The notes under the pieces: model-generated | What the model was told of the DNA's origin: nothing | What the model saw: only the letters and a program-made list of their open reading frames with translations | Database searches by the model: none | Shown here: positions 1,487 to 20,801 of the stretch, piece after piece | How positions within the stretch are numbered: position 1 is the stretch's first letter | Layout: every line of letters begins with the position of its first letter | DNA from: Aequorivita antarctica | GTDB taxonomy: Bacteria; Bacteroidota; Bacteroidia; Flavobacteriales; Flavobacteriaceae | Reading direction: 5' to 3' | Assembly (NCBI RefSeq): GCF_007997155.1 | Contig: NZ_VORT01000014.1 | Coordinates: 1-64,000, forward strand | DNA: 64,000 bases | Made by a program: the position numbers and the translations under genes

Positions 1487-1933
1487 ATGCTATCCAAACA
1501 ACAAGCACGGGCGTTTTTCTTAGTAGGAACGTTCGTAACCTTTTTGATTTTTATTGGCCTCACTATTTATTCCTTCAGTGATGGCCAAGATCAAACCAAT
1601 TATGAAAACATTACCGCACAGGTGGTACGTGGCAAACACATTTGGGAAAAAAACAACTGTATGGGCTGCCATACCATTCTAGGCGAAGGTGCCTATTATG
1701 CGCCAGAACTTACAAAAGTTATTGAACGCCGTGGTGAAGGCTACGTAAAAGCGGTGTTGATGTCTCCAGTGCCTTGGGCGCCAAACGACCGTAAAATGGT
1801 TGCCTATGGTTTCTCAGAAGAAGAGGCCTTGGATGTTATTGCCTTCTTTAATTGGATAGGCGAGATAGACCTTAACGGCTTTGAGCGAATTGTATCGCCT
1901 TTGGCAAAAGACAAACAACTAACCAACAACTAA
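1487..1933 (+). CDS. norC: Nitric oxide reductase subunit C (cytochrome c)
   Basis: 148 residues. One N-terminal membrane anchor (about 9-29) is followed by a periplasmic cytochrome c domain with the heme site CMGCH (C58, C61, H62) and a probable distal ligand M104 in RKMVAYG. Length and layout are those of NorC, which takes electrons from periplasmic carriers and passes them to the heme b of NorB for reduction of NO to N2O. First gene of the operon, 93 bp before norB, with a clear activator box upstream. Confidence 0.95.
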   Translation: MLSKQQARAFFLVGTFVTFLIFIGLTIYSFSDGQDQTNYENITAQVVRGKHIWEKNNCMGCHTILGEGAYYAPELTKVIERRGEGYVKAVLMSPVPWAPNDRKMVAYGFSEEEALDVIAFFNWIGEIDLNGFERIVSPLAKDKQLTNN

Positions 1934-1937
1934 GAAA

Positions 1938-2029
1938 TTATGAAATGCCCTTCTGAAGTTTAAACTAACCGAAGAAAATTTAATAGGGCATTCCATCTTC
2001 CTATAACTAACAAAAATTATATACAGATG
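1938..2029 (+). other. Intercistronic hairpin element shared with ccoQ-ccoP gap (copy 1)
   Basis: GAAATGCCC (1941-1949) can pair with GGGCATTCC (1986-1994). The gap between norC and norB closely matches the gap at 26261-26352: both begin TTATGAAATGCC, both carry GGGCATTCCATCTTCC followed by TAAC, AACAAA and ATTATATA, and both end AGATGAAA at the next start codon. The middle parts differ. Probably an mRNA element that sets translation or stability of the following oxidase gene; its role is inferred. Confidence 0.6.
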
Positions 2030-3376
2030 AAATATAAATCTCAAAAAGTAGCCTATTGGTTTTTTGCTTTATCAATGCTGCTACTCGTATTGCAGTTGAC
2101 CTATGGTTTCATTATGGGTTTCGCCCGTATTGGAATGGACGGTCTGCACGAATATATTCCGTTTAACACAGCACGCGCCGTTCACACTAACCTACTTGTG
2201 GTTTGGTTGCTCTCCGGATTTATGGGTGCCGCTTATTACATTATTCCCGAAGAAGCCCAACGCGAACTTGTAAGCGTTAAGTTGGCGTATGTTCAGCTTA
2301 TTACACTTGCTTTAGTAGGCGTTGCCGCTATTATTGGTTTTCATTTTAATATTTGGGAAGGTCGAAAATTTTTGGAAATTCCACGCCCGCTCGATTATTT
2401 AGTAGTTTTAAATGTTCTTTTATTCCTCGCATTGATACTTCTAACGCTTTTTAAAGGAAAACGAAAAACCACAACGGCATTAGTGCTTTCCATGGGGCTT
2501 TTGTTTGCAGCCCTACTTTATCTTCCAGGAATGTTGCCTTTTGACAGCCAAGTAACCGATAGTTTTTTTCGCTGGTGGGTAGTTCACCTTTGGGTTGAAG
2601 GTGTTTGGGAGCTTATTATGGGCGGTATTCTTGCCTTTTTGCTCATCAAACTTACCGGTGTTGACCGCGAGGTTATTGAAAAATGGCTTTATGTAATCGT
2701 TGGACTTACTTTCCTTTCCGGCGTGCTTGGTACTGGTCACCACTATTACTATATAGGTGTAAACAAAATCTGGCTTGTTGTCGGTGGAATTTTCTCAGCT
2801 TTGGAACCATTGGCATTTCTTGCAATGGCACTTTTTGCAGTAAATATGTATCGCAAAGGCGAAAAGAAACACCCAAATAAAATTGCGCTGTTTTGGACGC
2901 TTGGAGCCGCCATTGTCTCCTTTGTTGGCGCTGGACTTTTAGGCTTTGCGCATACGTTGCCCCAAACCAATCTCTATACGCACGGAACCTTGGTTACCGC
3001 AATGCACGCCCACTTAGCTTTCTGGGGTGCTTATGCAATGATTGTTTTGGCGATTATAAGCTACAGTCTTCCTAATATGACCGGACGCAAATTGTATGAC
3101 GGAACTCGTGGTCGCGTGGCTTTCTGGACTGCAAATATTGGAATGATAGGAATGACGATGGCTTTTGGAGTAGCAGGTGTGGCACAGGTTTATTTGGAAC
3201 GAAAGTTCGGAATGGAATTTATGGCCGTACAGAAGGAAATAAGCATCCATTTTATAGTGCTTATTATTTGCGCTAGTTTGTTTACCATCGGAATTTTAAC
3301 CTATATATACGATTTTTACAAACACGGCCTCCCCACAGATGAAGCCATGGAAACCGAAGAGAATAAATTTTTATAA
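2027..3376 (+). CDS. norB: Nitric oxide reductase subunit B (cNOR type)
   Basis: 449 residues, about 12 membrane helices. All metal ligands of cNOR are present: H53 and H329 for low-spin heme b, H327 for heme b3, and H187, H238, H239 with E191 for the non-heme iron; E195 is also kept. The spacing matches Pseudomonas NorB with a constant shift of 20. Catalyses 2 NO + 2 e- + 2 H+ to N2O + H2O in the inner membrane, paired with NorC. No N-terminal quinol-oxidising domain, so it is not a qNOR. Confidence 0.95.
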   Translation: MKYKSQKVAYWFFALSMLLLVLQLTYGFIMGFARIGMDGLHEYIPFNTARAVHTNLLVVWLLSGFMGAAYYIIPEEAQRELVSVKLAYVQLITLALVGVAAIIGFHFNIWEGRKFLEIPRPLDYLVVLNVLLFLALILLTLFKGKRKTTTALVLSMGLLFAALLYLPGMLPFDSQVTDSFFRWWVVHLWVEGVWELIMGGILAFLLIKLTGVDREVIEKWLYVIVGLTFLSGVLGTGHHYYYIGVNKIWLVVGGIFSALEPLAFLAMALFAVNMYRKGEKKHPNKIALFWTLGAAIVSFVGAGLLGFAHTLPQTNLYTHGTLVTAMHAHLAFWGAYAMIVLAIISYSLPNMTGRKLYDGTRGRVAFWTANIGMIGMTMAFGVAGVAQVYLERKFGMEFMAVQKEISIHFIVLIICASLFTIGILTYIYDFYKHGLPTDEAMETEENKFL

Positions 3377-3386
3377 ATACTTTAAA

Positions 3387-3497: not shown

Positions 3498-3515
3498 AAT
3501 AGATAGTTTGTTTGG

Positions 3516-3549
3516 TCGAGTCCTTCAGCTTTAGTTTAGAAGGGCTCGA
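3516..3549 (+). other. Stable hairpin just upstream of norQ
   Basis: TCGAGTCCTTC (3516-3526) pairs with GAAGGGCTCGA (3539-3549) with one G-U pair, over a 12-nt loop, 23 bp before the norQ ATG. There is no T run after it, so a processing or stability role fits better than termination. Confidence 0.6.
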
Positions 3550-3572
3550 ACACACAATTAAAATGAAAAATT

Positions 3573-4415
3573 ATGGCGACAACAGAAACTATAAATACAA
3601 AACCAATAATGAAGATTTCTTCGGAAGAAGTTTCGGGGAAAGGAAATATACCTTTCTACAAACCTATCCATCGCGAGATTGAAGTTTTTCAGCACGCTTT
3701 CAAAAACCGATTGCCAATATTGCTGAAAGGTCCCACAGGAACCGGAAAGACACGATTTGTTGATTATATGGCACATCAGTTGGAGCAATCGCTCATAACC
3801 GTTTCATGCCATGAAGAAACCTCTTCCACAGATCTTATTGGACGCTATATTATCAAAGGTGCAGAAACCATTTGGGTGGATGGCCCTTTGACGAAAGCGG
3901 TGAAGGAAGGTGCTATTCTTTATTTAGACGAAATAGCCGAAGCCCGCCCAGATGTGATAGTTTCTATACATTCACTTACAGATCATAGAAAGGAACTTTA
4001 TATTGATAAACTTGGAATTACCGTGAAAGCACACCCAGATTTTATGCTCGTGGCTTCCTTTAATCCTGGTTACCAAAAAGGATTTAAGGAGTTAAAACCT
4101 TCTACCCGCCAACGTTTTGTGGCGCTTTCATTTCAATATCCAACTGCAAAGGATGAAACTGAAATAGTGGAAACCGAAACAGGTTTGGATCGCGATACTT
4201 CAAAAAAACTGGTAAATATTGCCCATAAAATCAGGAATCTTACCGAATTGGGTCTTACTGAAACCGTTTCCACACGTTTATTGGTGGATGCTGCAATGCT
4301 TATAAATAGCGGACTTCCTAAGCGGCTTTCCGTAAAAGTGGCGATTGTAGAGCCTTTGACCGATGACCTTGAAATTACCCAAGCGCTAACAGATTTGTGC
4401 GATTTGATGATTTAA
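3573..4415 (+). CDS. norQ: NorQ, MoxR-family AAA+ ATPase for NOR maturation
   Basis: 280 residues. Walker A GPTGTGKT at about 53-60, Walker B ILYLDEIAEA at about 112-121, then sensor and arginine-finger regions (STRQRF). NorQ is a cytoplasmic AAA+ chaperone that works with the von Willebrand protein NorD to insert the non-heme iron into NorB. It is followed after 9 bp by norD. The 196-bp gap before it, with two strong hairpins, is unusually long for this operon. Confidence 0.92.
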   Translation: MATTETINTKPIMKISSEEVSGKGNIPFYKPIHREIEVFQHAFKNRLPILLKGPTGTGKTRFVDYMAHQLEQSLITVSCHEETSSTDLIGRYIIKGAETIWVDGPLTKAVKEGAILYLDEIAEARPDVIVSIHSLTDHRKELYIDKLGITVKAHPDFMLVASFNPGYQKGFKELKPSTRQRFVALSFQYPTAKDETEIVETETGLDRDTSKKLVNIAHKIRNLTELGLTETVSTRLLVDAAMLINSGLPKRLSVKVAIVEPLTDDLEITQALTDLCDLMI

Positions 4416-4424
4416 GCCAAAGCC

Positions 4425-6194
4425 ATGTTTGAACCCGATGAGTTTATCTTTGCCAAGGTTGCAAAATTTCTAAAACACCGAAAAAAAAGTGCGAAGGAAG
4501 CAATTGCGCACACCGTAAAACTTAGCGAAATTAAACCTCGGCTAACATTGGTAGCTCGCGCCGTTACAGGCCATGCAATTGAAATATTTGAGGCGGAACG
4601 CGAGGGCGGCTACAAAAACAACAGCTTCTTTTTGCCCGAGCGCTTTTCAGGTTTTGACACTTCAGAAAAAAATCTTGCCTTTTACATTTTTAGAACGCTC
4701 TATCTTTCCATCCAGAAAAGCTTTCAGCTAAATTATGAATTGGGTGAAGAGCATACTTTGGAAGAAGCCCAAAAAATTTCCGAAGAGAATTCTGAAAAAG
4801 TGTTAAAGGAAATTTTTAACCAATTCCCGGGAACGGAGCAGGTTTATTCTGAATTACTGTTACTTATTGAGGAAAATACTTCGGAAAAAAATCCACCCGA
4901 TTATTCTTTTATTTATGGGAAATGGATGGAGAATTCCCCCGAAATTCCGAAGAAAAAAGTGCTTCAGAATATTTCAGAAAAAGTAAAATCTGCCATTGAA
5001 GAAGAAATAAATACAATTTTGAAAGCCAATGCGGTGGAAGAAATAAAATCTATTGAAGTTGATAAAAAAGCGCAGGAAGATTATATGCTTACCCACAACT
5101 TTGAAAAGGCGGAAACCGCAGAAGAGTGGGAGGGCGGCTGGCGCGATTTTGATGGCGATGACGAACTTGACGACCACGCCAATGCGCTTGAAGACCTGAA
5201 TATGAAGCAAACCGTACGAGTGGACGATCTTACACATTCCATCTATCAAGCAGAATTTATTGAAAACACCACAATTTCAGAAAGTGCCGAATTGGAAGCA
5301 GCTGGCCATCACATTCTATATGACGAATGGGATTGTTCCAAACGGGTTTATAAACCCGATTTCTGTAAAGTTTTCCCACAAACGCAGACTGAAATTGATC
5401 CTGGATATTACAAAAACACCCTCCGCGAGCACGCTTCTACTTTGATGGGACTGCGCAAAATGCTAACTTCAGTAAACAATAAATTTCAACAACAACGCAG
5501 ACAATTGCAGGGCGAGGAATTTGACCTCGACGCATTGACGGATTTATATGTTGACGTTCACACGGGGCACACGCCTTCGGAAAACATATATCTCTCAAAA
5601 CGGAAAAAAGAAAAAGACCTTTCCATTTTAATGCTTTTGGATAGCAGTCTTTCCAGCGATGGATATGCTGCTGGAAACAGGGTGATAGATGTTGAAAAAC
5701 AGGTTTCAATCCTTTTTGGGGAAATTTTGGATGAATTCAACGTGGATTTTTCTATCGCAGGTTTCTATTCCAAAACCCGAAACCACAGTACTTACTTGAC
5801 TTTAAAGGATTTTGGAGAACCTTGGCAAAAGGCAAAACACAAAATTGGCGCATTGCAGCCCAGTGGTTATACACGAATTGGTACTGCGCTGAGACATTCG
5901 GGAGCCTTGCTGGACAAACGCGACACCAAAAACAAATGGGTTATCCTTATTTCGGACGGAAAGCCCAATGATTATGACAAATACGAAGGCAAATACGGCA
6001 TCAATGATGTAAAGCAAGCACTTCGGGAATTGAACCAGCGGAACATAAATTCGTATGCGTTGGCGATTGAGGCGCAGGCAAAATATTATTTGCCACAGAT
6101 GTTTGGGCAGAACCATTTCCAGATTTTGACCACGCCTGTAGAATTGCTGCAATCGCTAGTAAAACTGTACGAAAAAATAAAACATCAAAGCTGA
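4425..6194 (+). CDS. norD: NorD, von Willebrand factor A protein for NOR activation
   Basis: 589 residues, cytoplasmic. The N-terminal half is helical and acidic; the C-terminal vWA domain starts near residue 395 and carries a MIDAS motif (LLDSSLSSDG, DxSxS type, near residue 405), the later Thr (SGYTRIG) and the Asp in LISDGKPND. It partners with NorQ to assemble the FeB site of NorB. It ends 1 bp before norE, so the two are probably co-translated. Confidence 0.92.
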   Translation: MFEPDEFIFAKVAKFLKHRKKSAKEAIAHTVKLSEIKPRLTLVARAVTGHAIEIFEAEREGGYKNNSFFLPERFSGFDTSEKNLAFYIFRTLYLSIQKSFQLNYELGEEHTLEEAQKISEENSEKVLKEIFNQFPGTEQVYSELLLLIEENTSEKNPPDYSFIYGKWMENSPEIPKKKVLQNISEKVKSAIEEEINTILKANAVEEIKSIEVDKKAQEDYMLTHNFEKAETAEEWEGGWRDFDGDDELDDHANALEDLNMKQTVRVDDLTHSIYQAEFIENTTISESAELEAAGHHILYDEWDCSKRVYKPDFCKVFPQTQTEIDPGYYKNTLREHASTLMGLRKMLTSVNNKFQQQRRQLQGEEFDLDALTDLYVDVHTGHTPSENIYLSKRKKEKDLSILMLLDSSLSSDGYAAGNRVIDVEKQVSILFGEILDEFNVDFSIAGFYSKTRNHSTYLTLKDFGEPWQKAKHKIGALQPSGYTRIGTALRHSGALLDKRDTKNKWVILISDGKPNDYDKYEGKYGINDVKQALRELNQRNINSYALAIEAQAKYYLPQMFGQNHFQILTTPVELLQSLVKLYEKIKHQS

Positions 6195-6195
6195 A

Positions 6196-6780
6196 ATGGC
6201 CGATACTGTAAAAATTGATTACAAAAATATTTTTTACCCGCCCGGCGGAATATTGATGTGGATTGTTATTTACCTCGAACTCGTTACTTTCGGGATTGCC
6301 TTAGTTTTTATGGCATTAAACGCAAGAGCCGAGCCAGAGATGTTTCACGAATCTCGTTTGCTTTTAAATACTGCTTACGGTGCAATAAACACAATTTTCT
6401 TGCTTAGCAGTGGTTGGTGCATGGCGCAATCTGTGTATTTTTTGAAAAAAGGAAATTTTAGTAAAAGCAAATTATTTTTAAATCTAACTATCCTTGGAGG
6501 TTTTCTATTTCTTGCTTTGAAAAGTGTAGAGTATTACGATAAAGTAGAAGTCGGACTTACCATTGGCTACAATGATTTCTTTGGGTATTATTGGATGCTT
6601 ACCCTATTTCATGTGGTTCACGTAATTGTCGGAATCGTGATTTTAGCTCTATCCGCAAGAACTCTCCGTAAAAAACCTGAAACCCTAAAAATTGAAGATT
6701 ATCAATCTGGCGCCACCTTTTGGCATATGTGCGATTTAATTTGGCTGTTGCTTTTCCCAATAATTTATTTACTTTTTTAA
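6196..6780 (+). CDS. norE: NorE, cytochrome c oxidase subunit III-like protein
   Basis: 194 residues with five predicted membrane helices (about 18-40, 54-72, 87-105, 129-150, 172-193) and the CoxIII-like HVVHVIVG segment near residues 137-144. NorE proteins accompany cNOR operons and raise NO-reducing activity without being part of the purified enzyme. It starts immediately after norD and is followed after 3 bp by the subunit IV-like gene. Confidence 0.88.
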   Translation: MADTVKIDYKNIFYPPGGILMWIVIYLELVTFGIALVFMALNARAEPEMFHESRLLLNTAYGAINTIFLLSSGWCMAQSVYFLKKGNFSKSKLFLNLTILGGFLFLALKSVEYYDKVEVGLTIGYNDFFGYYWMLTLFHVVHVIVGIVILALSARTLRKKPETLKIEDYQSGATFWHMCDLIWLLLFPIIYLLF

Positions 6781-7093: not shown

Positions 7094-7615
7094 TTACATC
7101 GAAAATCCCATTTGGGTAATTCGCATTCCACCAGTTCCGACACTCAAATTTCCGCCAAGTGTTACTCCACCAATGTTCATATTTTCATTGTCAATGTTTA
7201 CTTTAAAATCACCAGCATAAAAGTTTCCAGTTATTCTCAAAATAGCATCTACTTGATTTGTTTTAAGTAGTTCTGGAATCGGTCCAGATTTTGGCAGAGT
7301 GGGATTGTCGCTTTCAATTTGCTCAATTTTAATAATTAAGCTTCCATCTGATCTTTTTGCAATTAAATTTTTTTTATCGGATTCAATCTGAATATTTTCG
7401 TCAGCCACCACAGGTTTGCTTTTGAAAAGCTTTACTTCTCTTTTGTTTTCAAAATCTTTAATATCGCAATCCACGGCTAAATAAGAGCCTTCTGACCTTT
7501 CTCGAAAAATTTCTCGGACTTTAAAAAACTCTTTTAACTTCCCATTAATTTCTACTGTAAAAACTCCATTTGTTCCAATGAACATATTCGAGCCTAACAT
7601 AATTGCATATTTCAT
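7094..7615 (-). CDS. Hypothetical protein (cassette-borne)
   Basis: 173 residues from the ATG at 7615, preferred over the in-frame ATG at 7639 because that one lies in the repeat border. No signal peptide or membrane helix is convincing; the sequence alternates charged and beta-strand-like segments and ends with a Gly-rich tail (GGVTLGGNLSVGTGGM). I do not recognise the family. It is enclosed between the repeat words at 7076-7090 and 7639-7770 and is oriented against the nor operon. Confidence 0.55.
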   Translation of the reverse strand: MKYAIMLGSNMFIGTNGVFTVEINGKLKEFFKVREIFRERSEGSYLAVDCDIKDFENKREVKLFKSKPVVADENIQIESDKKNLIAKRSDGSLIIKIEQIESDNPTLPKSGPIPELLKTNQVDAILRITGNFYAGDFKVNIDNENMNIGGVTLGGNLSVGTGGMRITQMGFSM

Positions 7616-7638
7616 ATTTCTTTTTTTTAGGTTGCCCA

Positions 7639-7770
7639 TAACGTTGTTGTGTATGGACCGTTGCGTGTTAAAGCACGAACCATTAAAGATACAAAACTAC
7701 GCTGGAAAATTCCCAAGAATTTTCCAGATGAGCACAGACCCAGCAATGGTTTATACACGGTGTTAGCAAC
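7639..7770. repeat. Long cassette-boundary inverted repeat, copy 3
   Basis: The left arm 7639-7667 (TAACGTTGTTGTGTATGGAC continuing to CGTTGCGTG) faces the right arm 7741-7770 (CAGCAATGGTTTATACACGG then TGTTAGCAAC). GTGTATGGACCGTTGC pairs with GCAATGGTTTATACAC with a few mismatches, across a spacer of about 73 bp. It separates the two minus-strand hypothetical genes 7094-7615 and 7777-8352. Similar long dyads are common between small genes in flavobacterial genomes, to my recollection. Confidence 0.65.
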
Positions 7771-7776
7771 TGGCTT

Positions 7777-8352
7777 TTATTTCATTTCATATTTCCAATA
7801 CAAGTTGCTATATATTAAATAAGTAATTATTAATCTTTGCGTATCACTTTTAAAATCCACTTCATTAACTAATTCAGTTAATATTTCTGAATTCGGATAT
7901 GAATTATATTGGACTTTATCTTTTGTTGTTAAAATGTATTCGTAATGTTCTTGGTTCTTGAATGAACTCATAACACAATCATAAAATAATTCTTCAAAAA
8001 ACAATGAGGTCATCAAATTGTTCTCTATAAAATGATTATCATAATTAAATTCGAAAAACTCTTTCTTGAGAAAATCAGTTTTGTCAATATTTGATATTAG
8101 AGACAAATAATCTTTTTTGTTAATTCCAGAAAGCAATTTTCCGTTTTCCAAATAGTTTTCAAATTTTTTAATCGAATCAAACACATTAACTGATTTTGCA
8201 AATTCCGATTCCGATGTGTTTGGACGGTAAAATATTCCCCTTTCAAACGTTTTGGTGTTAATGCAATTTTGGTATTCCGATTCTGACTCGGTTTTATTGG
8301 TTTTACACGAGAGAAGGAAAAGCGTAATTAATATTGATATTATATATTTCAA
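7777..8352 (-). CDS. Putative lipoprotein, unknown function (cassette-borne)
   Basis: 191 residues. MKYIISILITLFLLSC is a lipoprotein signal with the lipobox ending at C16, so the protein is probably anchored in the outer or inner membrane. The mature part is helical and acidic with many Phe, Tyr and Asn residues. I do not recognise a family. The gene fills the space between the repeat right arm (7741-7770) and the GTTGCTAAC word at 8379-8387. Confidence 0.6.
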   Translation of the reverse strand: MKYIISILITLFLLSCKTNKTESESEYQNCINTKTFERGIFYRPNTSESEFAKSVNVFDSIKKFENYLENGKLLSGINKKDYLSLISNIDKTDFLKKEFFEFNYDNHFIENNLMTSLFFEELFYDCVMSSFKNQEHYEYILTTKDKVQYNSYPNSEILTELVNEVDFKSDTQRLIITYLIYSNLYWKYEMK

Positions 8353-8378
8353 TTTTTGTGCGTGATTTTTTTCAGCTT

Positions 8379-8387
8379 GTTGCTAAC
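8379..8387. repeat. Cassette-boundary repeat, copy 4
   Basis: GTTGCTAAC, the exact complement of the GTTAGCAAC word that ends the 7639-7770 dyad, lies 27 bp before the start codon of the 7777-8352 lipoprotein gene and marks the other edge of its cassette. Confidence 0.45.
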
Positions 8388-8572
8388 TTGTTTATATCCC
8401 CAACTTTTATATGTTTATACCACTAATTCAGTTGGCTATATCCAAGTTTTAAGTTTTTTTACTTGGTGTATTTCCCAAATATACGAATTTACCCCTTCCA
8501 ACCCCTTTTATATATGTTCCAAACCACTACAGCACTGTAGCATACCTTAAAAAAGAATAGTCTGGTTTTTAT

Positions 8573-10630
8573 TTATAGCCCAATCCGCACCCGTGTATCC
8601 ACAGCCATGATTGCCCTTTGCGTGCCAATCAAGGGGTTGATGTCCATTTCCATAATTTCCGGGGCGGCTTCTACCAAAGCGGAAAGCCTTTGAATAATAT
8701 CCACAAATTGGTTTTCGTCCACACCCTCTTGGTCTCTCGCACCCTGAATCAATTTATAACCCCGAAGCGATTGCACCATTTTCTGTGCTTCTACTTTTGA
8801 GATGGGGCTCAATCCTGCAGCCACATCGTTTAGCACTTCTATAAAAATTCCGCCCAAACCACAAAGAATGGTGTGGTTGAAGCCAGGCTCTTTCATAACG
8901 CCCACAAACAGTTCTAGCCCCGCCAATTGTGGTTGCACCATAACCGCCGTAGCGGAATCTATTTTCATCAACAAATCAAAGGTTTCCGAAACTTCTTCTT
9001 TGGAAGATATATTCAGCACCACACCTTTAGCATCACTTTTGTGAAGCGGGCCAACCACTTTCATCACCACGGGAAATTCCATTGAATCCATCGCAGCGAG
9101 CAATTTTTCTTTTGAATTTTCAACAATTTCCATCACCCGTGGAATTCCTGCGGCGTCCAATAACTTTTCAGTTTGCTTAGCATTGAGATAGCCTTCTGGA
9201 ACATTATCAATAACGGAACGTATTTTTTCAACATCTATGTTTGGCAATGAAATTTGTTCCGAAATAGGTTCTGGCGTATTGAAAACCTGCGAAAGTGCTT
9301 TCCCCAAAACCACTTCATCCGGAAAATTAATATGTCCTTTTTTCAAAAACGATTGAATTTCGCGCTGTGCGTTCACCACGGATGGCAGCACGGGGAAAAT
9401 TGGCTTGCTGCAGATTTCCAATTTTACGCTCAAAACATTGTACACATTTTCAACGTCGAAAAGTCCGGGACTACCAAAAACCACGGCCATTGCGTCTATA
9501 TTTTCAAATTTGTGTTCACAGTAATCAATGATAATGCCCAGCTGTTCCGCCGTTCCCGTTGCCAAAAAATCTATGGGATTGCTGACGGACGAACCTGGAT
9601 AGAGGAACGATTTCAGCTTTTCGGCATCGGGCCCCGATATTTCTGGAACTTTCAACCCTCCCTTTGAAAGTTCATCGGCCAGCATTACCGCAGAACCACC
9701 TGCATGGGTAATAATGGCGATGTTTTTCCCAACCAATTTTTTATAGTTGAAAATGGAAGCCACGCTCAACAGTTGCTCGCGGCTGCTGCAATAAACAATT
9801 CCCGCCTTATTGAACAGCGCGCGCACCGTCATATCGCTGCTGGCAATGGCACCCGTATGCGAAGTGGCTGCACGGCTGCCCTCCGCGGTGCTTCCCGCTT
9901 TGATGGCCGCTATCTTTGCACCTTTTTTTATTAAGGAAGAAGCGTGTTTCAACAATTTTTTAGGGTTAGAAATGGTTTCCAGATAAAGCAATTTTATAAA
10001 TGAATCAATTTCTGGATTGAAGTGAATGTCCATATATTCCAGAATATCTTCAACGCCAGTCTGTGCTGCGTTTCCAACCGAAAATACATTTGCAAACGAA
10101 ACGCCCAACGCCATTCCAGCTTCCATAATAAAAACTGCGGTGGCGCCGGAACCTGAAATAAGGTCGCAACCCTTTGGATTAAATGGCGGAACTGGTGCTG
10201 TAAAAACGCCTTTGTAATGTTCGGTAATAACACCGATGCAGTTTGGGCCAATCAAACAACCTCCAACGCTTTCAACTGTTTGTGAGATTTCCTGTTCCCA
10301 CAGTTTTCCTTGTTCGTCACCTTCTCCAAAGCCTGCGGAAATGATAATGAATGCTTTGGTGTTTTTTTCTTCGGCCAGAATTTTTATAGTCTCAGGACAA
10401 AATTTGGCTGGAATAGCAAGTATGGCCAGTTCTGTTTTGGGAATATCCTTTACTTCCGAATAACTTTTTATACCCTGTACCTTTTCTTCTTTTGGGTTAA
10501 CAACGGACAAACTTCCACGGAAATCCCCGGAGATGATGTTTTTCAGCATATTGCCACCAGGTTTTTTAGCATCGTTGGAAGCGCCGATCACTACAATGGA
10601 TTTTGGATTGAGCAGTTGTTTGTTTACCAT
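8573..10630 (-). CDS. ADP-forming acetate (acyl)-CoA ligase, alpha-beta fusion
   Basis: 685 residues. CoA-binding Rossmann domain (about 5-130), succinyl-CoA-ligase-like flavodoxin region (about 150-440) with the phosphohistidine H258 in ATSHTGAIASS, and a C-terminal ATP-grasp domain (about 465-683). Such enzymes convert acyl-CoA + ADP + Pi to acid + ATP + CoA, giving substrate-level ATP when respiration is limited, and can run in reverse. It is divergent from norC2; a TAATTTCG -7-like octamer on its strand lies 33 bp from the shared Crp/Fnr box. Acetate is the likely but unproven substrate. Confidence 0.85.
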   Translation of the reverse strand: MVNKQLLNPKSIVVIGASNDAKKPGGNMLKNIISGDFRGSLSVVNPKEEKVQGIKSYSEVKDIPKTELAILAIPAKFCPETIKILAEEKNTKAFIIISAGFGEGDEQGKLWEQEISQTVESVGGCLIGPNCIGVITEHYKGVFTAPVPPFNPKGCDLISGSGATAVFIMEAGMALGVSFANVFSVGNAAQTGVEDILEYMDIHFNPEIDSFIKLLYLETISNPKKLLKHASSLIKKGAKIAAIKAGSTAEGSRAATSHTGAIASSDMTVRALFNKAGIVYCSSREQLLSVASIFNYKKLVGKNIAIITHAGGSAVMLADELSKGGLKVPEISGPDAEKLKSFLYPGSSVSNPIDFLATGTAEQLGIIIDYCEHKFENIDAMAVVFGSPGLFDVENVYNVLSVKLEICSKPIFPVLPSVVNAQREIQSFLKKGHINFPDEVVLGKALSQVFNTPEPISEQISLPNIDVEKIRSVIDNVPEGYLNAKQTEKLLDAAGIPRVMEIVENSKEKLLAAMDSMEFPVVMKVVGPLHKSDAKGVVLNISSKEEVSETFDLLMKIDSATAVMVQPQLAGLELFVGVMKEPGFNHTILCGLGGIFIEVLNDVAAGLSPISKVEAQKMVQSLRGYKLIQGARDQEGVDENQFVDIIQRLSALVEAAPEIMEMDINPLIGTQRAIMAVDTRVRIGL

Positions 10631-10815: not shown

Positions 10816-11247
10816 ATGTACACTAATTCAAGACCTTACATTTTTGTAATTGCAATTTTGCTAACGCTTTTTGGTATTTACAACTATGTTGTTTATAACA
10901 CCAACGGCTATGTGGCTGCTGAAAAATTATCCCCTTTGGCGGTAAAAGGCCAGCAGTTGTTTCAGAATAACCGTTGCTGGTCGTGCCATCAACTGTACGG
11001 TTTGGGCGGGTATTTAGGACCTGACCTCACGAATGTTTATTCAAACGAAAATAAAGGTCCGCTGTACATTAAAGCGTTTTTGAATAGCAGCGTAAAAAGT
11101 ATGCCGCAGTTTAATTTTTTGGAAGAAGAAAAAGATGCTTTGGTACAATATCTGAAACAGGTGGATGAAACAGGAATCTATCCCAACTACGACGCCGAAA
11201 TTGAAGCCACGGGTTGGGTGAAACTAAAGTATCGAAATGAAAAGTAA
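10816..11247 (+). CDS. NorC-like membrane-anchored cytochrome c (second copy)
   Basis: 143 residues. N-terminal anchor (about 7-25) and one cytochrome c domain with CWSCH (C54, C57, H58) and probable distal ligand M96. Same plan as NorC at 1487-1933 but distant in sequence. It overlaps the following NorB-like gene by 11 bp, so the two are surely a pair. Presumed electron donor to that subunit. A Crp/Fnr-type box is centred about 60 bp upstream of the ATG. Confidence 0.85.
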   Translation: MYTNSRPYIFVIAILLTLFGIYNYVVYNTNGYVAAEKLSPLAVKGQQLFQNNRCWSCHQLYGLGGYLGPDLTNVYSNENKGPLYIKAFLNSSVKSMPQFNFLEEEKDALVQYLKQVDETGIYPNYDAEIEATGWVKLKYRNEK

Positions 11248-12565
11248 GGCCCCAATTTATTTTCTGCTTTTCGCCATGGTAGCCCTGTTTATGGGAATGT
11301 TTTTTGGATTGACGGCTTCATTTCAATATTTAATGCCTGAATTTTTAAAAGAACAAATCCCCTTTTCAAAACTGCGCCCTTTTCACGTTACTTCGGTCAT
11401 TTCATGGATTGTGCTTTGCGCCACGGGCAGTATTTATTTTTTTCTCACTTATGTAGAAAAATTCAAACTCTTTTCGCCTTTGATGGCGAAGATTCATTTC
11501 ATCATTTTTCTTTTAACAGGTATTGCCATTTACTTTTCGTTTGCATTTGATTATACCGAAGGAAGAGAGTATTTTGCCTTTGCACCAATTTTGATAATTC
11601 CAATTTTAATAGGTTGGGTTTTCTTCGGAATAAATTACTTCAAAACGCTTTATAAAAACGTAAAAGGCTGGCCGGTACATTACTGGATGTGGGGCACAGG
11701 CATTGTTTTTATGTGCTACCATTTGATGGAGGCGCATTTTTGGCTTTTCAATTTTTTTAGGTTGAATTTTATCAAAGATTTTTCCGTCCAATGGAAATCA
11801 ACGGGTTCTTTCACGGGTTCGTGGAATATGCTGGTTTATGGAATTTCAATTTATTTGATGTCCAAAATAAAGAAGGACAGCAATGTGGCTACAAACAAAA
11901 CCGCTTTTTTCTTCTACTTTTTGGGACTCACCAATTTAATGTTCGGTTGGGCGCATCATACATATTTGTTGCCAACACAACCTTGGATTCGATATGTTGC
12001 TTACGCAATAAGTATGACGGAATGGATTGTTTTGGCCTCGATTATTTACAACTGGAAACGCTCGGTTTTAAAAGTTGAAAAGGATATTAATCCAATGGCC
12101 TATCGGTTTTTACTGGCAACGGATTTTTGGGTTTTTATAAACGTCATACTCGCATTATTGTTTTCCATTCCCGCCATCAATTTCTTTACGCACGGTACGC
12201 ATATTACGGTGGCACATTCTATGGGAACTACTATAGGTATTAACACTACCATACTTTTTTCGGCCTTGTTTTTTATCGTTCACCAGCTGTATCCAGATTT
12301 TAAAACAGATAGAAAATGGGTAAAAAGAGGCTTTGTTTCTTTCAATATTTCACTATTTATATTTTTTGTTTCCCTCATAATTGCCGGAGCTAAAAGAAGC
12401 TATTGGATGTATGTTTCTAAAGACGGATTGTTTTCTGAAATGCAGGATTCGCTCATCCCTTATTACATTTCATTTTTCATTTTTGGAATAGGAATTTTCA
12501 TTTCCCTTTTAATAGTTGCCTTCCCAATTTTCAAAGCTTTTCTTCAAAAAATTAAACCCTCATAA
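11237..12565 (+). CDS. Divergent NorB-like heme-copper oxidase subunit with altered metal sites
   Basis: 442 residues, about 12 helices, aligning along its length with the NorB at 2027-3376. Kept: H50 (TM2, low-spin heme), H240 and H241 (TM7 FeB pair), H319 and H327 (TM10; H327 is the heme b3 ligand). Changed: the TM6 segment WKSTGSFTGSWNM puts Thr, Thr and Asn where NorB has H187, E191 and E195, and TM10 reads AHSMG so M329 replaces the low-spin heme His. Extra His and Glu (H162, E165, H167) sit in the preceding helix. The altered sites make ordinary NO reduction doubtful; a sensor, electron-transfer or new gas-reactive role is possible. It is followed directly by nadA. Confidence 0.8.
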   Translation: MKSKAPIYFLLFAMVALFMGMFFGLTASFQYLMPEFLKEQIPFSKLRPFHVTSVISWIVLCATGSIYFFLTYVEKFKLFSPLMAKIHFIIFLLTGIAIYFSFAFDYTEGREYFAFAPILIIPILIGWVFFGINYFKTLYKNVKGWPVHYWMWGTGIVFMCYHLMEAHFWLFNFFRLNFIKDFSVQWKSTGSFTGSWNMLVYGISIYLMSKIKKDSNVATNKTAFFFYFLGLTNLMFGWAHHTYLLPTQPWIRYVAYAISMTEWIVLASIIYNWKRSVLKVEKDINPMAYRFLLATDFWVFINVILALLFSIPAINFFTHGTHITVAHSMGTTIGINTTILFSALFFIVHQLYPDFKTDRKWVKRGFVSFNISLFIFFVSLIIAGAKRSYWMYVSKDGLFSEMQDSLIPYYISFFIFGIGIFISLLIVAFPIFKAFLQKIKPS

Positions 12566-13492
12566 ATGGATTTACATCAAAAAATAACGGAGTTAAAAAA
12601 GCAGAAAAATGCCGTCATCCTCGCGCATTATTACCAAGTACCCGAAATTCAGGAAGTGGCGGATTATGTTGGCGACAGTTTGGGTCTTTCACAAAAAGCG
12701 GCTGAAACAGATGCAGAAATCATTGTTTTTGCCGGCGTTCATTTTATGGCTGAAACCGCCAAGATATTGAACCCTAACAAAAAAGTCTTGTTGCCGGATT
12801 TGATGGCTGGTTGTTCCCTGGCAGATTCTTGCCCAGCAGATGTGTTTCGGAAATTAGTTGAGGCCCATCCAGGTTATACGGTGATTACCTATGTTAATTG
12901 CTCTGCGGAAGTAAAAGCTTTAAGCGATATTATTTGCACGTCCTCCAATGCAGAGAAAATTGTAAATTCCGTCCCGAAAGACGTCCCAATTATTTTTGCA
13001 CCCGATAAAAATCTGGGAAAATATATACAGAAAAAAACCAGAAGAAAAATGCTGCTCTGGGATGGGGCTTGCATTGTGCACGAAGCATTTTCAATAGATA
13101 AACTTTTGAAATTGTACAAAGAAAATCCCGGTTCAAAAATAATTGCGCATCCTGAAAGTGAAAGCCACATTTTAGAAACAGCGACCTATGTTGGTTCCAC
13201 GGCTGGAATGATAGATTATGTGAAAAAACATCCTTCTGAAAAATTTATAGTTGCCACCGAAGCTGGAATTCTTCATAAAATGCAACAACAAGTACCGCAA
13301 GCTGTGTTGATTCCTGCTCCAGCGGAAGAGGACAATACGTGCGCTTGCAGCGAATGTGCTTTTATGAAGATGAACACTTTGCAAAAATTGTACGACTGTC
13401 TGCTGAACGAATCCCCGCAGATAGAAGTTTCCGAAGAAATACGAAAAAAAGCCATTCTGCCCATTGAACGGATGCTTGAATTATCGAAATAA
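12566..13492 (+). CDS. nadA: Quinolinate synthase NadA
   Basis: 308 residues, starting at the base after the NorB-like stop codon. Three NadA-type [4Fe-4S] Cys candidates are C83 (AGCSLAD), C169 (WDGACIVHE) and a Cys of the TCACSECAF cluster near 257-263; HYYQVPEIQ near 21 and GDSLGLS near 36 are also typical. Condenses iminoaspartate with dihydroxyacetone phosphate to quinolinate for NAD synthesis. The cluster is sensitive to oxygen and NO, which may explain its place behind an NO-related pair. It overlaps nadB by one base. Confidence 0.93.
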
Positions 13493-15063
13493 TGAAGGAG
13501 ACCAATTTTTTAATTATCGGTTCAGGAGCTGCGGGTTTAACGCTTGCAGTGAAACTTGCCGAAAAATTTCCAAAGAAAAAAATAACGATTGTAACCAAAG
13601 CCCACCAATCAGAATCGAACACCAAATATGCCCAAGGTGGCGTGGCGGCGGTCTTTGATTTAAAGGAAGATTCATTTCAAAAACATATTGAAGACACGCT
13701 TATTGCTGGCGACGGACTTTGCGACAAATCCGTTGTTGAAATGGTAATAAAGGAAGGCCCCAAAAGATTGAAGGAGCTGATGGAATGGGGCGCCAATTTT
13801 GATACCGATGCAAATGGCGAATTCACTTTGGGTAGGGAAGGGGGGCATTCCGAATTTAGGGTGATTCATCATAAGGATACCACTGGAAACGAAATTGAAC
13901 GCACGCTTTTGGAACGTACCAATCGTTTGCAAAACATTACCCTGCTTCCACATCATTTCGCAATAGATTTAATTACCGAACATCATTTAAATACTAGTAA
14001 AAATGAAGAGATTTCGTGTTACGGAGCTTATGTTTTGGACCAGATTTCGGGAAGCATTTTTACTATAAAAGCAGATTGCACTACGCTTGCTTCTGGCGGA
14101 ATGGGGCAAGTTTATGGTCACACTACTAATCCCACAGTTGCCACAGGTGATGGTATTGCAATGGCATATCGTGCAAAGGCTCGCATACAAAACATGGAGT
14201 TTATCCAGTTTCACCCAACGGCATTTTACGATGGAAATAACGGGGCTTCCTTTTTGATTTCTGAGGCTGTTCGTGGGTTTGGAGCTTTTCTTCGAAATAA
14301 AAATGGCGAACGGTTTATGTTGAATTATGACGGACGAGGCGAATTGGCTTCCCGTGATATCGTTTCGCGCGCTATAGATTCCGAAATGAAAAAATCGGGT
14401 GATGATTGCGTTTATTTGGACTGTACCCATCTTGATTTTGAAGAATTCAAAAAGCATTTTCCAAATATTTTTGAAACCTGTTTTCAAAGAAACATTGACG
14501 TTTCAAAAGATTGGATTCCGGTAGTGCCGGCATCACATTACTTATGTGGCGGAGTTGTTGTCGACATGGACGGAAAAACTTCGTTGAAAAATCTTTTTGC
14601 CTGTGGAGAGTGTTCATACACAGGTTTGCATGGGGCCAATCGATTGGCATCCAACTCATTGCTTGAAGCCTTAGTTTATGCCGACTGTATTTTTAATTAT
14701 CTCTGTAATCATATGCCTTTACAGGCGACCAAAGCCATCCCTGAATGGAACGATGAGGGTACAATTTTGTTAAACGCTTCAGAAACCCTTCAACGAAAAA
14801 CTGAGGAATTGCAGCAGTTGATGCGAAGGTTTGCAGGTGTTGTGCGCAACAATGATGATTTGAAAACGGCTTCCCTCCAATTGGAGAAATTATATTTTGA
14901 AACCGAATTCCTTTATCAAAAGCACAAGCTCAACACGGCACTTTCCCAACTTAGGAATATGGTAAATGTGGCACATTTGATTATTCAGCAATCCTTAAAA
15001 AGAAAAGAAAACTGCGGTGGATTTTACAACGAAGATTACGAAAAAATAAAAGAAATAATATGA
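13492..15063 (+). CDS. nadB: L-aspartate oxidase NadB
   Basis: 523 residues. N-terminal FAD-binding GSGAAGLTLAVKLAE (about 9-23), the substrate and flavin segments common to fumarate reductase-type flavoproteins, and HGANRLASNSLLEA near residues 380-393. Oxidises L-aspartate to iminoaspartate with oxygen, or fumarate when oxygen is absent, and hands it to NadA. Overlaps nadA by one base and the next gene by four, so the three are translationally coupled. Confidence 0.94.
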   Translation: MKETNFLIIGSGAAGLTLAVKLAEKFPKKKITIVTKAHQSESNTKYAQGGVAAVFDLKEDSFQKHIEDTLIAGDGLCDKSVVEMVIKEGPKRLKELMEWGANFDTDANGEFTLGREGGHSEFRVIHHKDTTGNEIERTLLERTNRLQNITLLPHHFAIDLITEHHLNTSKNEEISCYGAYVLDQISGSIFTIKADCTTLASGGMGQVYGHTTNPTVATGDGIAMAYRAKARIQNMEFIQFHPTAFYDGNNGASFLISEAVRGFGAFLRNKNGERFMLNYDGRGELASRDIVSRAIDSEMKKSGDDCVYLDCTHLDFEEFKKHFPNIFETCFQRNIDVSKDWIPVVPASHYLCGGVVVDMDGKTSLKNLFACGECSYTGLHGANRLASNSLLEALVYADCIFNYLCNHMPLQATKAIPEWNDEGTILLNASETLQRKTEELQQLMRRFAGVVRNNDDLKTASLQLEKLYFETEFLYQKHKLNTALSQLRNMVNVAHLIIQQSLKRKENCGGFYNEDYEKIKEII

Positions 15064-15751: not shown

Positions 15752-17017
15752 ATGCAAATCGTTTCTGCCGAAGAGGCTGTATCTATAGTAAGTTCAAATA
15801 ATCGTGTGTTTTTTCAAGGAGCGGCAATGACGCCCAATTTATTGATAGACACTTTGTGCGAAAGATATCGCGAACTGAAAAATGTTGAAATAATACAAAT
15901 TCATACGCACGGCGAAGCCAAGTACACTATGGAACCCTTTACCGATGCCTTCCATCTTTCCAGTTGTTTTGTGGGAGAGAACGTTCGAAAAGGTGTAAAC
16001 ACTTCATTTGGGGACTATATTCCTATTTTTTTGAGTGAGATCCATTGGCTTTTCAAAAGAAATATTTTGCCTTTGGATGTAGCTTTTATTCAGGTTTCGT
16101 CTCCAGATAGGCACGGGTATTGTTCCCTTGGTGTTTCTGTAGATGTTACCTTGTCAGCCATCCAGACTGCTAAAAAAGTTATCGCCCAAATAAATCCACA
16201 AGTTCCGAGAACACACGGGGATGGCATTATACATATAAAAAATATAGACTTCGCTGTAGAAATTGATACCCCAATTCACGCTTCTGCGCTAGGTATTCCT
16301 ACAGAGGTAGAGGCCATCATCGGCAGGCATGTTGCCAGTTTGGTTGAAGATGGTGCTACCCTTCAAATGGGCATTGGTAATATTCCCAACGCGGTGCTTC
16401 ACAACCTTCGCAATCACAAACGTCTGGGGATCCATACAGAAATGTTTAGCGACGGAATTCTTCCCTTAATTGAAAAAGGAATTATCACAGGCGAGGAAAA
16501 AGTGATTAAGCCTGGAAAAATAGTTACCTGTTTCGCAATGGGTACCCAAAAATTATACGATTTTATCGATGATAACCCAATTGTCCATTTTAAGGAGGCG
16601 TCTTATACCAACGATACCGCTATCATTAGGCGAAACCCAAAAGTAACAGCCATCAATAGTGCAATAGAAATTGATCTTACAGGCCAAGTTTGTGCGGACA
16701 GCATCGGGATGTACCAATATTCTGGAGTTGGGGGGCAAATGGATTTTATTCGCGGCGCATCGCTTTCGGAAGGAGGGAGGCCCATTATTGCAATGCCTTC
16801 AATTACTAATAAAGGTGTTTCTAAAATCACTCCATTTTTAAAAGAAGGCGCTAGTGTAACTACTACGCGGGCTCACGTTCATTATGTGGTTACTGAATAC
16901 GGAGTAGTGAATCTTTTTGGAAAAGGACTGGAGCAGCGTGCGAAAGCACTTATTTCCATAGCGCATCCAGAGCATCGGGAAGCATTGGAGAGGGCAGTAA
17001 AATTGCGGTTTCACTAA
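15752..17017 (+). CDS. Acetyl-CoA hydrolase/transferase family protein
   Basis: 421 residues, class I CoA-transferase fold in two halves (about 1-180 and 185-415). The GIHTEMFSDG segment near residue 228-237 carries the Glu expected to form the CoA thioester, and the MGIGNIPNAVL and YSGVGGQMDFIRGA segments are typical of 4-hydroxybutyrate/acetate CoA-transferases. It probably moves CoA between acetyl-CoA and another acid, next to the acyl-CoA ligase in carbon flow to acetate. Single-gene unit with its own TGAY-N4-RTCA box; weak hairpin terminator at 17058-17085. Confidence 0.82.
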   Translation: MQIVSAEEAVSIVSSNNRVFFQGAAMTPNLLIDTLCERYRELKNVEIIQIHTHGEAKYTMEPFTDAFHLSSCFVGENVRKGVNTSFGDYIPIFLSEIHWLFKRNILPLDVAFIQVSSPDRHGYCSLGVSVDVTLSAIQTAKKVIAQINPQVPRTHGDGIIHIKNIDFAVEIDTPIHASALGIPTEVEAIIGRHVASLVEDGATLQMGIGNIPNAVLHNLRNHKRLGIHTEMFSDGILPLIEKGIITGEEKVIKPGKIVTCFAMGTQKLYDFIDDNPIVHFKEASYTNDTAIIRRNPKVTAINSAIEIDLTGQVCADSIGMYQYSGVGGQMDFIRGASLSEGGRPIIAMPSITNKGVSKITPFLKEGASVTTTRAHVHYVVTEYGVVNLFGKGLEQRAKALISIAHPEHREALERAVKLRFH

Positions 17018-17133: not shown

Positions 17134-17562
17134 ATGTTCTCAAAAGCGTGCGAATACGGAATAAGATCGGTTCTCTTTATAGCGGAACAATCCCAACTAG
17201 ATAAGCGACCGAATATTGTCGAAATTGCCAAGGCTGTTGATTCTCCAGAACCATTTACAGCTAAAATCTGTCAACAACTAGCACGCTCAGGGATTATTCT
17301 TTCAAGGAAAGGTCCCAATGGCGGTTTCTATTTAGAAAAAGATTCCAAACTCACGCTTGCTGAAATAGTTGCTTGTATTGATGGAGATTCTATTTTTAAA
17401 GGCTGTAGTTTAGGTTTGCCTCAATGTTCCGCTGCGCATCCTTGTCCGGTTCACGATCAGTTTAATGATGTTAGGGAGGGCTTGAAAAAAATGTGTGAAA
17501 ACACTACAGTAACGCAACTTTCTGAAAAACTTCGTAAAGGAGAAACCTTTTTGAAAATATAA
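17134..17562 (+). CDS. Rrf2-family regulator (first of tandem pair), iron-sulfur type
   Basis: 142 residues. Winged-helix DNA-binding domain (about 1-85), then a Cys cluster C-x6-C-x5-C (GCSLGLPQCSAAHPC, about 91-105) suited to hold an iron-sulfur cluster. In this context an NsrR-like NO sensor or an IscR-like sensor is likely. It is paralogous to the next gene (same MFSKAC start and same Cys spacing). IscR, NsrR or RsrR identity cannot be settled by eye. Confidence 0.85.
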   Translation: MFSKACEYGIRSVLFIAEQSQLDKRPNIVEIAKAVDSPEPFTAKICQQLARSGIILSRKGPNGGFYLEKDSKLTLAEIVACIDGDSIFKGCSLGLPQCSAAHPCPVHDQFNDVREGLKKMCENTTVTQLSEKLRKGETFLKI

Positions 17563-17669: not shown

Positions 17670-18104
17670 ATGTTTTCAAAAGCGTGCCAGTACGGGATAA
17701 AAGCTTCGGTGTATATTGCATCGCAGTCTGCTTTGGACAATCGCGTTAGCTTGAAGGACATTGCATTTAGTATCAATTCGCCAGAAGCTTTTACTGCAAA
17801 AATCCTACATCAATTAGCCAAGAGCGATATTCTTGATTCTTTGAAAGGCCCCACGGGTGGTTTTGTAATACCTAAGGGTAGGGCAGAGACCATTAAGTTG
17901 AGTGATATTGTTTTGGCTATAGACGGAGATTCTATATATATGGGCTGTGCCCTCGGGTTTGGTTCCTGCGATGCACGCCAACCTTGCCCCATGCATAACA
18001 AGTTTGCGGAAATACGGGACGACCTAAAAAGAATGCTTCACAATACCAGTCTTTACGAATTGGCCCACGGGCTTGATGGTGGAATTTCTTTTTTGAAACG
18101 ATAA
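17670..18104 (+). CDS. Rrf2-family regulator (second of tandem pair), NsrR-like
   Basis: 144 residues, winged-helix domain then C-x6-C-x5-C (GCALGFGSCDARQPC, about 92-106), the same plan as the preceding gene. Preceded by a perfect palindrome over its own promoter and followed after 3 bp by a hemerythrin gene, with ric next. This context points to an NO-responsive repressor of NO-damage functions. Which of the two paralogues binds the palindrome cannot be told. Confidence 0.86.
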   Translation: MFSKACQYGIKASVYIASQSALDNRVSLKDIAFSINSPEAFTAKILHQLAKSDILDSLKGPTGGFVIPKGRAETIKLSDIVLAIDGDSIYMGCALGFGSCDARQPCPMHNKFAEIRDDLKRMLHNTSLYELAHGLDGGISFLKR

Positions 18105-19583: not shown

Positions 19584-20801
19584 TTGATAAATTTAAAGAA
19601 ACATATAGGTATTGCCTTGGCGTATTTTTTGGCTGTAGCATTAATGGGTGTTTTGTTGCGATTCTATGTTGTTACATCTCTTCCTTTCAATTACAAATAC
19701 CTCCTTCATGCACATTCACACACCGCCTTGTTAGGTTGGATATATTTGGGAATAACAACCTTGATTTATAAGATTTTTCTTTCTTCTGCAGAAAAACCAA
19801 AACTTTATAAACGTATTTTCCTATTTACGAATGTTAGCATTATGGGAATGTTGATAACCTTCCCCATTCAAGGATATGCCTTGTTTTCCATTATTTTTTC
19901 AACACTTTTTTTGTTCGCTTCCTATTGGTTTACTTGGTTTGCGATGAAGTACGTTCCGCAGCATTTCAAAAATCGATTTTCGTGGAAACTCATAAAGACA
20001 TCGCTTTGGTATCTGGTTATTTCCAGTATCGGTCCGTGGACCATTGGTGGTGTGATGGCAACCCTGGGTCCAGAGTCTATTTGGTATAAAACGTCAATTT
20101 ATTTCTACCTTCATTTTCAGTATAACGGTTGGTTTATCTTGGCACTTTTAGGGATATTGTTTTATATTTTTGAAGAAAAGGGAATTCAGTTCAAGCCTGA
20201 AAAACTGAAATCATTTTTCCTTCTTTTGAATTTTGGCGTGCTTTTTACATTATTCCTTTCGGTACTTTGGTTTGGTCCGCCCATTGTTTTTTATGTACTC
20301 GGATTAGTTGGGGCAGTAGCGCAAGGACTTGCCTTTTACGAATTTTATATGCTGCTGAAAGACCATTTCCCGCTCATGAAAAAATCGTTTGCTCCGCGCG
20401 CCTTTTTTCTTCTAAAAATAGCCGGAGGTTTACTTGTCGCAAAATTGTTGATGCAACTCTTTTCGGCAATCCCTTATGTTGCAAATTTGGCCTTTCAGCT
20501 TAAAGATTTTGTAATAGGTTATCTTCATTTGGTTTTCTTGGGAATTGTAATAACAACATTACTTGCTTTTTTAAAATATTTTAAATTAATAAAGCTTCCC
20601 AAAAGTTTTATTTGGACCTTCATTTTTGCTTTTACAACAACCGAATTTTTAATCTTTTATAAAGCATTCGCTCTTTGGTTAAAACTTCCGTTTATTTCAA
20701 ACTATTATATGCTATTGGCAATTTTGAGTCTAAGCTTTCCTATAGCAGTGTCAATTCTTTTTTTTAAAAATATCTTTCTTAAATATTCCAAAAACATGTA
20801 A
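19584..20801 (+). CDS. Heme-copper-oxidase-like 12-helix membrane protein, degenerate
   Basis: 405 residues from a TTG start; the first in-frame ATG (19644) would cut TM1. About 12 helices. Oxidase-like landmarks: HAHSHTALLGW in TM2 (H42, H44, H46), LHFQYNGW in TM6 (H177, with N181 in the place of the NorB Glu), and a single His in TM10 (GYLHLVF, H315). The TM7 His pair is absent (LSVLWFGPP). So it may bind heme but not a complete binuclear site. It follows ric, as NnrS-like NO-tolerance genes do elsewhere; a distant relation to NnrS or to cbb3 subunit I is possible. Function unknown. Confidence 0.7.
   Translation: MINLKKHIGIALAYFLAVALMGVLLRFYVVTSLPFNYKYLLHAHSHTALLGWIYLGITTLIYKIFLSSAEKPKLYKRIFLFTNVSIMGMLITFPIQGYALFSIIFSTLFLFASYWFTWFAMKYVPQHFKNRFSWKLIKTSLWYLVISSIGPWTIGGVMATLGPESIWYKTSIYFYLHFQYNGWFILALLGILFYIFEEKGIQFKPEKLKSFFLLLNFGVLFTLFLSVLWFGPPIVFYVLGLVGAVAQGLAFYEFYMLLKDHFPLMKKSFAPRAFFLLKIAGGLLVAKLLMQLFSAIPYVANLAFQLKDFVIGYLHLVFLGIVITTLLAFLKYFKLIKLPKSFIWTFIFAFTTTEFLIFYKAFALWLKLPFISNYYMLLAILSLSFPIAVSILFFKNIFLKYSKNM

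Follow-up and report, generated by a model that had tools for sequence, protein, structure and literature searches.

The window analysed here, a stretch of 64,000 nucleotides from the marine bacterium Aequorivita antarctica (contig NZ_VORT01000014.1, positions 1 to 64,000 of the forward strand), carries a gene pair, which we call nLC-nLB (nLCB), whose larger member is a second NorB look-alike that keeps heme sites and a cytochrome partner, has lost part of the metal site of nitric oxide (NO) reductase (NOR) and thus probably handles NO in a chemically different way. The first gene, nLC (10816..11247, plus strand), encodes a NorC-like membrane-anchored cytochrome c of 143 residues with a CWSCH heme site, identified by Pfam and by a match to its top solved relative, NorC of the cNOR of P. 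aeruginosa (3o0r_C, 7e-8). Its 3' end overlaps the start of nLB (11237..12565, plus strand), a NorB-like membrane subunit whose length of 442 residues and coordinates agree with a first-pass annotation made from the letters alone, which had also named the NorC-like partner correctly. The identification of nLB comes from the open reading frame list, Pfam (COX1, E 4.7e-32), alignment and a predicted structure. By sequence, the closest solved proteins are the cNOR NorB chains 4xyd_A (3.6e-13) and 3o0r_B (1.8e-8), and the predicted model has the fold of heme-copper subunit I, matching chains of the cbb3 oxidase 3mk7 at a TM-score of 0.86-0.88. The A. antarctica genome encodes four PF00115 proteins.

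Relatives were collected by a pattern scan of a genome collection, in which 91 of 102 candidate stretches encode a relative; the best 80 were kept and represent 79 distinct loci, a number that is a lower bound, seeding having been by exact short patterns alone. Together with the window sequence, these loci form the 80-row alignment to which the counts below refer. They are 43-93% identical to the query and come from Bacteroidota-type or Proteobacteria contigs, which we divided by record title into 62 non-proteobacterial and 17 proteobacterial loci. As in cNOR, in which a NorC-type cytochrome c subunit accompanies NorB, 78 of the 79 loci have nLC upstream of nLB in the same orientation, at a spacing of -217 to +96 bases; in the sole exception, L080, the contig begins at nLB.

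Heme and metal sites of nLC-nLB

When nLB is aligned to 3o0r_B, with positions counted along the printed alignment, H50, H240, H241, H327 and M329 fall opposite residues 60, 258, 259, 347 and 349, and T193, N197 and E262 opposite residues 211, 215 and 280; residues 60, 207, 258, 259, 347 and 349 of 3o0r_B are those that we take to be the heme and FeB ligands. The low-spin heme b His of transmembrane helix 2 (TM2; H50, codon 11384..11386), the His pair of TM7 (H240-H241, codons 11954..11959) and the proximal heme b3 His (H327, codon 12215..12217), all on the plus strand, are retained as the first-pass annotation had it, H50 and the His pair in 80 of 80 rows and H327 in 79. The likeness to cNOR extends to the order of the two subunits, C then B, to the fold, to E262 opposite E280, and to H319 and N315, which align with the heme propionate residues H339 and N335 of cNOR (PMC4816578). 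The same source names NorB E135 and NorC G71 and Y73 as ligands of a Ca2+ that lies between the two b hemes; the predicted counterparts are nLB E111 (80/80 rows) and nLC G64 (79/79) and Y66 (76/79), the two nLC positions being counted by eye. The heme c site of nLC, a CXXCH motif formed by C54, C57 and H58, is found in 79 of 79 rows, and the pair would be expected to be loaded with its hemes.

The losses lie in TM6 and TM10. Residues Q185-N197 of TM6 (11789..11827, plus strand), which read QWKSTGSFTGSWN, replace the NorB segment WWVVHLWVEGVWE with its FeB His and two Glu, and the alignments bear out the earlier claim that these metal-site residues are gone. The NorB TM6 His falls opposite G190 in the HMMER alignment and opposite T189 in the MAFFT alignment, neither of which is a His (position 189 is Y in 63, T in 15 and V in 2 of the 80 rows). 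The FeB ligand E211, so described in PMC6713497, which treats E280 as well, is replaced at position 193 mostly by Val or Thr (V 40, T 37, F 2, I 1), and E215 by Asn. A slip in alignment register that conceals a TM6 His can be rejected, as the columns of residues 178-212 are free of His in all 80 rows. Opposite the second low-spin heme His stands M329 (codon 12221..12223, plus strand; 79/80 rows), again as first annotated, so that the low-spin heme b, bis-His in cNOR, is predicted to be ligated by Met329. Of the His sextet that is the signature of the heme-copper superfamily (HCOs) (PMC3413370), nLB keeps four (H50, H240, H241 and H327), and the cNOR FeB set of three His and one Glu is incomplete.

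According to PMC9976466, FeB is inserted into cNOR by NorQ and NorD, and qNOR does not depend on NorQD. The acids proposed as the docking site for NorD (DRE in 7 of 7 NorB rows) are not retained in nLB, and a search for NorD, the one of the two partners that the survey below covered, gave no strong match in 30 of the 36 carrier genomes. Considering the lost ligands, with which both observations fit, it is very likely that a normal FeB would not be assembled in nLB. The absence of NorD is support rather than proof, because qNOR is also independent of NorQD and the completeness of most carrier genomes is uncertain.

Besides these losses, nLB differs from cNOR NorB in its identity of about 20-22%, its separate clade and its occurrence without NorD. 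NO dismutase (NOD), also a NOR relative, in which a coordinating His and a catalytic Glu have been lost, offers a partial parallel; as described in PMC3413370, however, it is qNOR-like, has no heme c, has Asn in place of the His and Gln in place of the Glu and keeps the remaining His, whereas nLB has a heme c partner encoded by a separate gene and has lost two of the six His. A changed key residue is likewise found in eNOR, sNOR, gNOR, bNOR and nNOR, non-canonical NO reductases that are partly just proposed. PMC11388526 relates cNOR and qNOR to the C family and the other NORs to the B family, and a cupredoxin subunit is described for sNOR, gNOR and eNOR (PMC8756737). By contrast, nLB is paired with a cytochrome c subunit and is placed next to cNOR; the distinction is drawn from these descriptions and from a tree with two eNOR-like rows, and neither alignment nor tree supports nLB as a B-family NOR. 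With CcoN of cbb3 oxidase, nLB shares the fold and a QW at the start of TM6, but it forms a separate clade, lacks the TM6 CuB His and has Met for the second TM10 His.

A conserved family under purifying selection

Eleven residues, H50, E111, E165, Q185, W186, K187, G190, N197, H240, H241 and E262, are invariant in all 80 rows, and the one row in which H327 and M329 are missing is that of the broken locus L026. The distant members in G042, G331, G422 and G653 retain the TM7 HH, the motif HGTHxxxAHxMG, the QWK and the TM5 Glu. This Glu, E165 (codon 11729..11731, plus strand), stands at the end of TM5 and is an invariant specific to the family. The first-pass annotation had suggested that it might form an alternative metal site with H162 and H167, which as a set has to be abandoned because the two His vary: H162 is kept in 58 rows and gives way to Thr in 22, and H167 is kept in 71, with Tyr or Asn in the other 9; the distant rows G042 and L137-L139 have Tyr there as well.

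Since residues that act as ligands in cNOR have been lost, one could suspect a decaying copy of NorB. Across seven pairs of nLB genes, dN/dS (the ratio of nonsynonymous to synonymous substitution rates) is 0.029-0.068, at dS values of 0.85-2.05 that are partly saturated, and the gene is under purifying selection. The reading frame is broken inside the contig in just one of the 79 loci (L026), two others (L063 and L080) being cut by contig ends and the rest open, and the replacement residues are fixed in several families, spanning two bacterial groups. We therefore reject the pseudogene explanation, whose probability we consider practically negligible.

In the tree, the 16 nLB rows form one clade with support of 100/100, outside the seven NorB rows and one qNOR row and separate from the two eNOR-like rows and from CcoN, although the program issued a long-branch warning. 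The alignment, the conserved losses and this clade, which places nLB beside cNOR/qNOR, together uphold the earlier proposals that the protein is not an ordinary NO reductase and that it is a distinct branch of the heme-copper superfamily. The pair is rare: it occurs in 11 of 249 Flavobacteriaceae genomes and 8 of 395 genomes of the phylum, and in a sample of 274 genomes from the class of G271 it was found only in G271 itself. A search for plasmid-borne nLB returned 230 records at E 1e-3, none covering 80% of the query and with top identities of about 25%. None of the titles and abstracts that we found describes such a protein, which may nonetheless already have been noted in the large PNAS 2024 survey of NOR families.

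Genomic context and possible NO chemistry

For the co-occurrence of nLC-nLB with denitrification genes we surveyed 36 carrier genomes, hand-picked for spread from among the 79 loci (37 were chosen and L078 was left out). Going by score and length, six (G249, G254, G255, G256, G260 and G263) encode canonical NorB, and exactly the same six have a strong NorD match, G279 adding one weak match (112.6 bits); in the other 30, canonical NorB is missing and NorD gives no strong match. Counting only matches above the curated cut-off for NirK and above 360 bits for NirS-type (PF02239), NirK is found in 9 of the 36 and NirS-type in 12, figures for which there is no background rate in the proteobacterial groups. 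NosZ is found in 15, all among the 20 non-proteobacterial carriers, and at least one of the three in 28. The NirS-type domains of G271, G272, G274, G275, G278, G279 and G284 lie inside open frames of 720-752 residues, longer than we would presume for NirS, which are possibly fused cytochromes. At L118, L119, L120 and L130, in proteobacterial carriers, we noticed PF00115-type proteins of 455-523 residues with a GGGHxxQF-like motif (GAGH in L118), AHYHG and no evident HH pair, which are a further non-canonical heme-copper type.

The survey bears directly on whether nLB is a true NO reductase, converting 2 NO to N2O at a rebuilt non-heme metal site formed by H240/H241 and a ligand from E165, E262, N197 or water. 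All five of these residues are invariant in the family, 16 of the 30 carriers without canonical NorB possess a NirK or NirS-type match, and G250, G251, G253 and G270, which lack canonical NorB and encode NirK and NosZ, each contain three PF00115 proteins, nLB and two that score and size mark as aa3-type and cbb3-type, which looks as though the NOR step had fallen to nLB. PMC8756737 moreover describes NOR families in which the key site carries other residues. The same source, however, gives precedent for nitrite reducers without nor genes, and the third ligand could not be placed in a model that is weak at residues 231-250 (predicted local distance difference test scores of 59-70). In addition, two proteobacterial carriers, G271 and G274, encode an eNOR-like protein of 570 residues whose Tyr site is occupied by Gln (sites matched by eye), the feature that defines eNOR in PMC8756737, and nLB is thus not everywhere the sole candidate for NO reduction. 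Overall, a rebuilt-site NO reductase appears possible but unlikely.

Among the 249 Flavobacteriaceae genomes, canonical NorB occurs in 9 of the 11 nLB carriers versus 26 of the 238 others, a count based on 35 of 43 matches after eight qNOR-like ones (110-118 bits, about 750 residues or more, none in an nLB carrier) were dropped, and NosZ in 11 of 11 versus 107 of 238. Woeseiaceae are described in PMC12175321 as having partial denitrification including NorBC, calls among which nLB may or may not be counted.

The flanks of the loci were searched by BLAST with the window proteins over up to 6 kb per side (some shortened by contig ends). In the 62 non-proteobacterial loci, nor genes occur in 21, Rrf2-like in 31, ScdA-like in 12 and hemerythrin-like genes in 10. 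The setting of nLC-nLB is thus mostly one of denitrification, NO metabolism and NO stress, which the first-pass annotation had not stressed. Among proteobacterial neighbours no NO-related pattern is evident, except in the gammaproteobacterial contig L071, where a cupredoxin-type gene and an eNOR-like protein of 571 residues (GHSSQQ) lie at 7451-9655, a few genes from nLB. In ten loci, nor genes precede the pair on the same strand, with small gaps as norD-COX3-nLC-nLB in L021, L027, L028, L030 and L031 and as norD-nLC-nLB in L023, L025 and L035; L022 and L038 have the same gene order with about 1 kb extra between norD and COX3. This arrangement, and the frequency of canonical NorB among flavobacterial carriers, could suggest a role without catalysis, as a partner, sensor or assembly factor of canonical NorBC, which we regard as quite improbable, considering that most surveyed carriers lack canonical NorB and a strong NorD match alike and that nLB nearly always has a cytochrome c subunit of its own.

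From the architecture, the residue losses, the purifying selection, the separate clade, the NorD-less occurrence and the denitrification context, all of which can be read from the sequences, we propose that nLC-nLB may be a two-subunit membrane complex, a cytochrome-c-fed NO-handling enzyme that uses heme b3 in the absence of a normal FeB and acts independently of NorQD, alongside or replacing cNOR, a reading to which we give about an even chance. Electrons would enter from a periplasmic cytochrome c at the heme c of nLC and pass through the His/Met low-spin heme b (H50/M329) to a five-coordinate heme b3 (H327). Compared with bis-His ligation, His/Met ligation is expected to make heme b more oxidising. 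The distal pocket would be lined by H240/H241 and E262, with neither His nor Glu from TM6, and would thus hold either no non-heme metal or one bound only by the His pair and some further ligand. NO would bind at heme b3 beneath the His pair and most likely be turned over, by reduction or one-electron detoxification. Candidate products would be N2O at a rebuilt site or nitrate from O2 and NO, besides other NO detoxification, and we rank an NO-related function above the alternatives. More tentatively, nLB could be a heme-copper branch without the three-His binuclear metal site, in which a single heme b3 under the distal His pair, fed through the His/Met heme b, turns over NO in marine bacteria that are denitrifying and in part aerobic, and supplies the missing NO-removing step in some genomes with NirK and NosZ.

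The route to nitrate deserves separate consideration, as a one-electron NO dioxygenase or oxidase in which O2 on heme b3 reacts with NO, the His/Met heme chain re-reduces the heme, and the His pair stabilises O2 as in globins. One-electron chemistry of this kind needs no binuclear metal, and in G264, G265, G266, G267, G268 and G276 only one PF00115 protein besides nLB was found, whose size and score are those of an aa3-like protein, suggesting aerobic use. These genomes may, however, be incomplete, the pair sits behind nor genes in the ten non-proteobacterial loci named above, and no precedent is known to us within the heme-copper superfamily; we consider this reaction rather improbable.

Several observations weigh against the proposal of an NO-handling enzyme without normal FeB. 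cNOR made without norQDEF is reported to be hemylated, FeB-less and inactive (PMC9976466). The carriers are mostly metagenome-assembled genomes of unestablished completeness, so that the absences of NorB and NorD are soft. NosZ was found in none of the 16 proteobacterial carriers, with a model that had no positive control among 14 named genomes and may have missed other NosZ types; eight of the 36 carriers (G262, G265, G266, G267, G269, G276, G280 and G282) have no NirK, NirS-type or NosZ match; and nor, ScdA-, Rrf2- and hemerythrin-like genes are found in none of the 17 proteobacterial flanks by BLAST with the window proteins. In Flavobacteriaceae the enrichment of NirK is weak, with 5 of 11 carriers versus 43 of 238 others (p 0.04), and all Fisher p values are optimistic because the genomes are related.

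Well-studied members of the heme-copper superfamily use a heme plus a second metal. A conserved branch that keeps the heme sites without the metal-site His, the Glu and one heme His would test how much of this apparatus NO chemistry requires. In genome surveys, nLB may be scored as norB by loose homology, producing false N2O sources, or be overlooked as an NO sink where NOR seems absent.

Other features of the window

The same window carries a canonical norC-norB-norQ-norD-norE set at 1487-6780 on the plus strand. It consists of norC (1487..1933; named by position), norB (2027..3376), whose FeB motif is complete by sequence comparison, a norQ-like gene for a MoxR-type ATPase (3573..4415) and a norD-like gene for a VWA-type protein, the FeB-insertion partner (4425..6194; both named by position), and a norE-like COX3 gene identified by profile matches (6196..6780). 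A NirK match lies at 32157-33044 on the minus strand.

Directly after nLB follow nadA (12566-13492) and nadB (13492-15063), both on the plus strand. The pairing with nadAB that the first-pass annotation had noted is real in the window and in the 37 of 62 non-proteobacterial loci with a nadA match in the flanks, and does not extend to the proteobacterial loci (0 of 17); the linkage is bound to lineage. The pair and its nad genes are flanked by an acyl-CoA-synthetase-like gene (8573-10630), also seen near nLC-nLB in L045, L048, L049, L051 and L066 and, by eye, in L141, and by a CoA-transferase gene (15752-17017).

Further downstream, a tandem pair of Rrf2-like regulators (17134-17562 and 17670-18104) with a C-x6-C-x5-C cluster, which we take to be NsrR-like, stands beside hemerythrin-like and ScdA-like genes, likely an NO-responsive set. 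At 19584-20801 lies a polytopic protein of 405 residues that contains HAHSHTALLGW and matches nothing in Pfam or NCBIfam at 1e-3. It is perhaps another degenerate oxidase-like protein, and its relatives occur in 7 of the 79 loci, where ScdA-like genes adjoin all seven.
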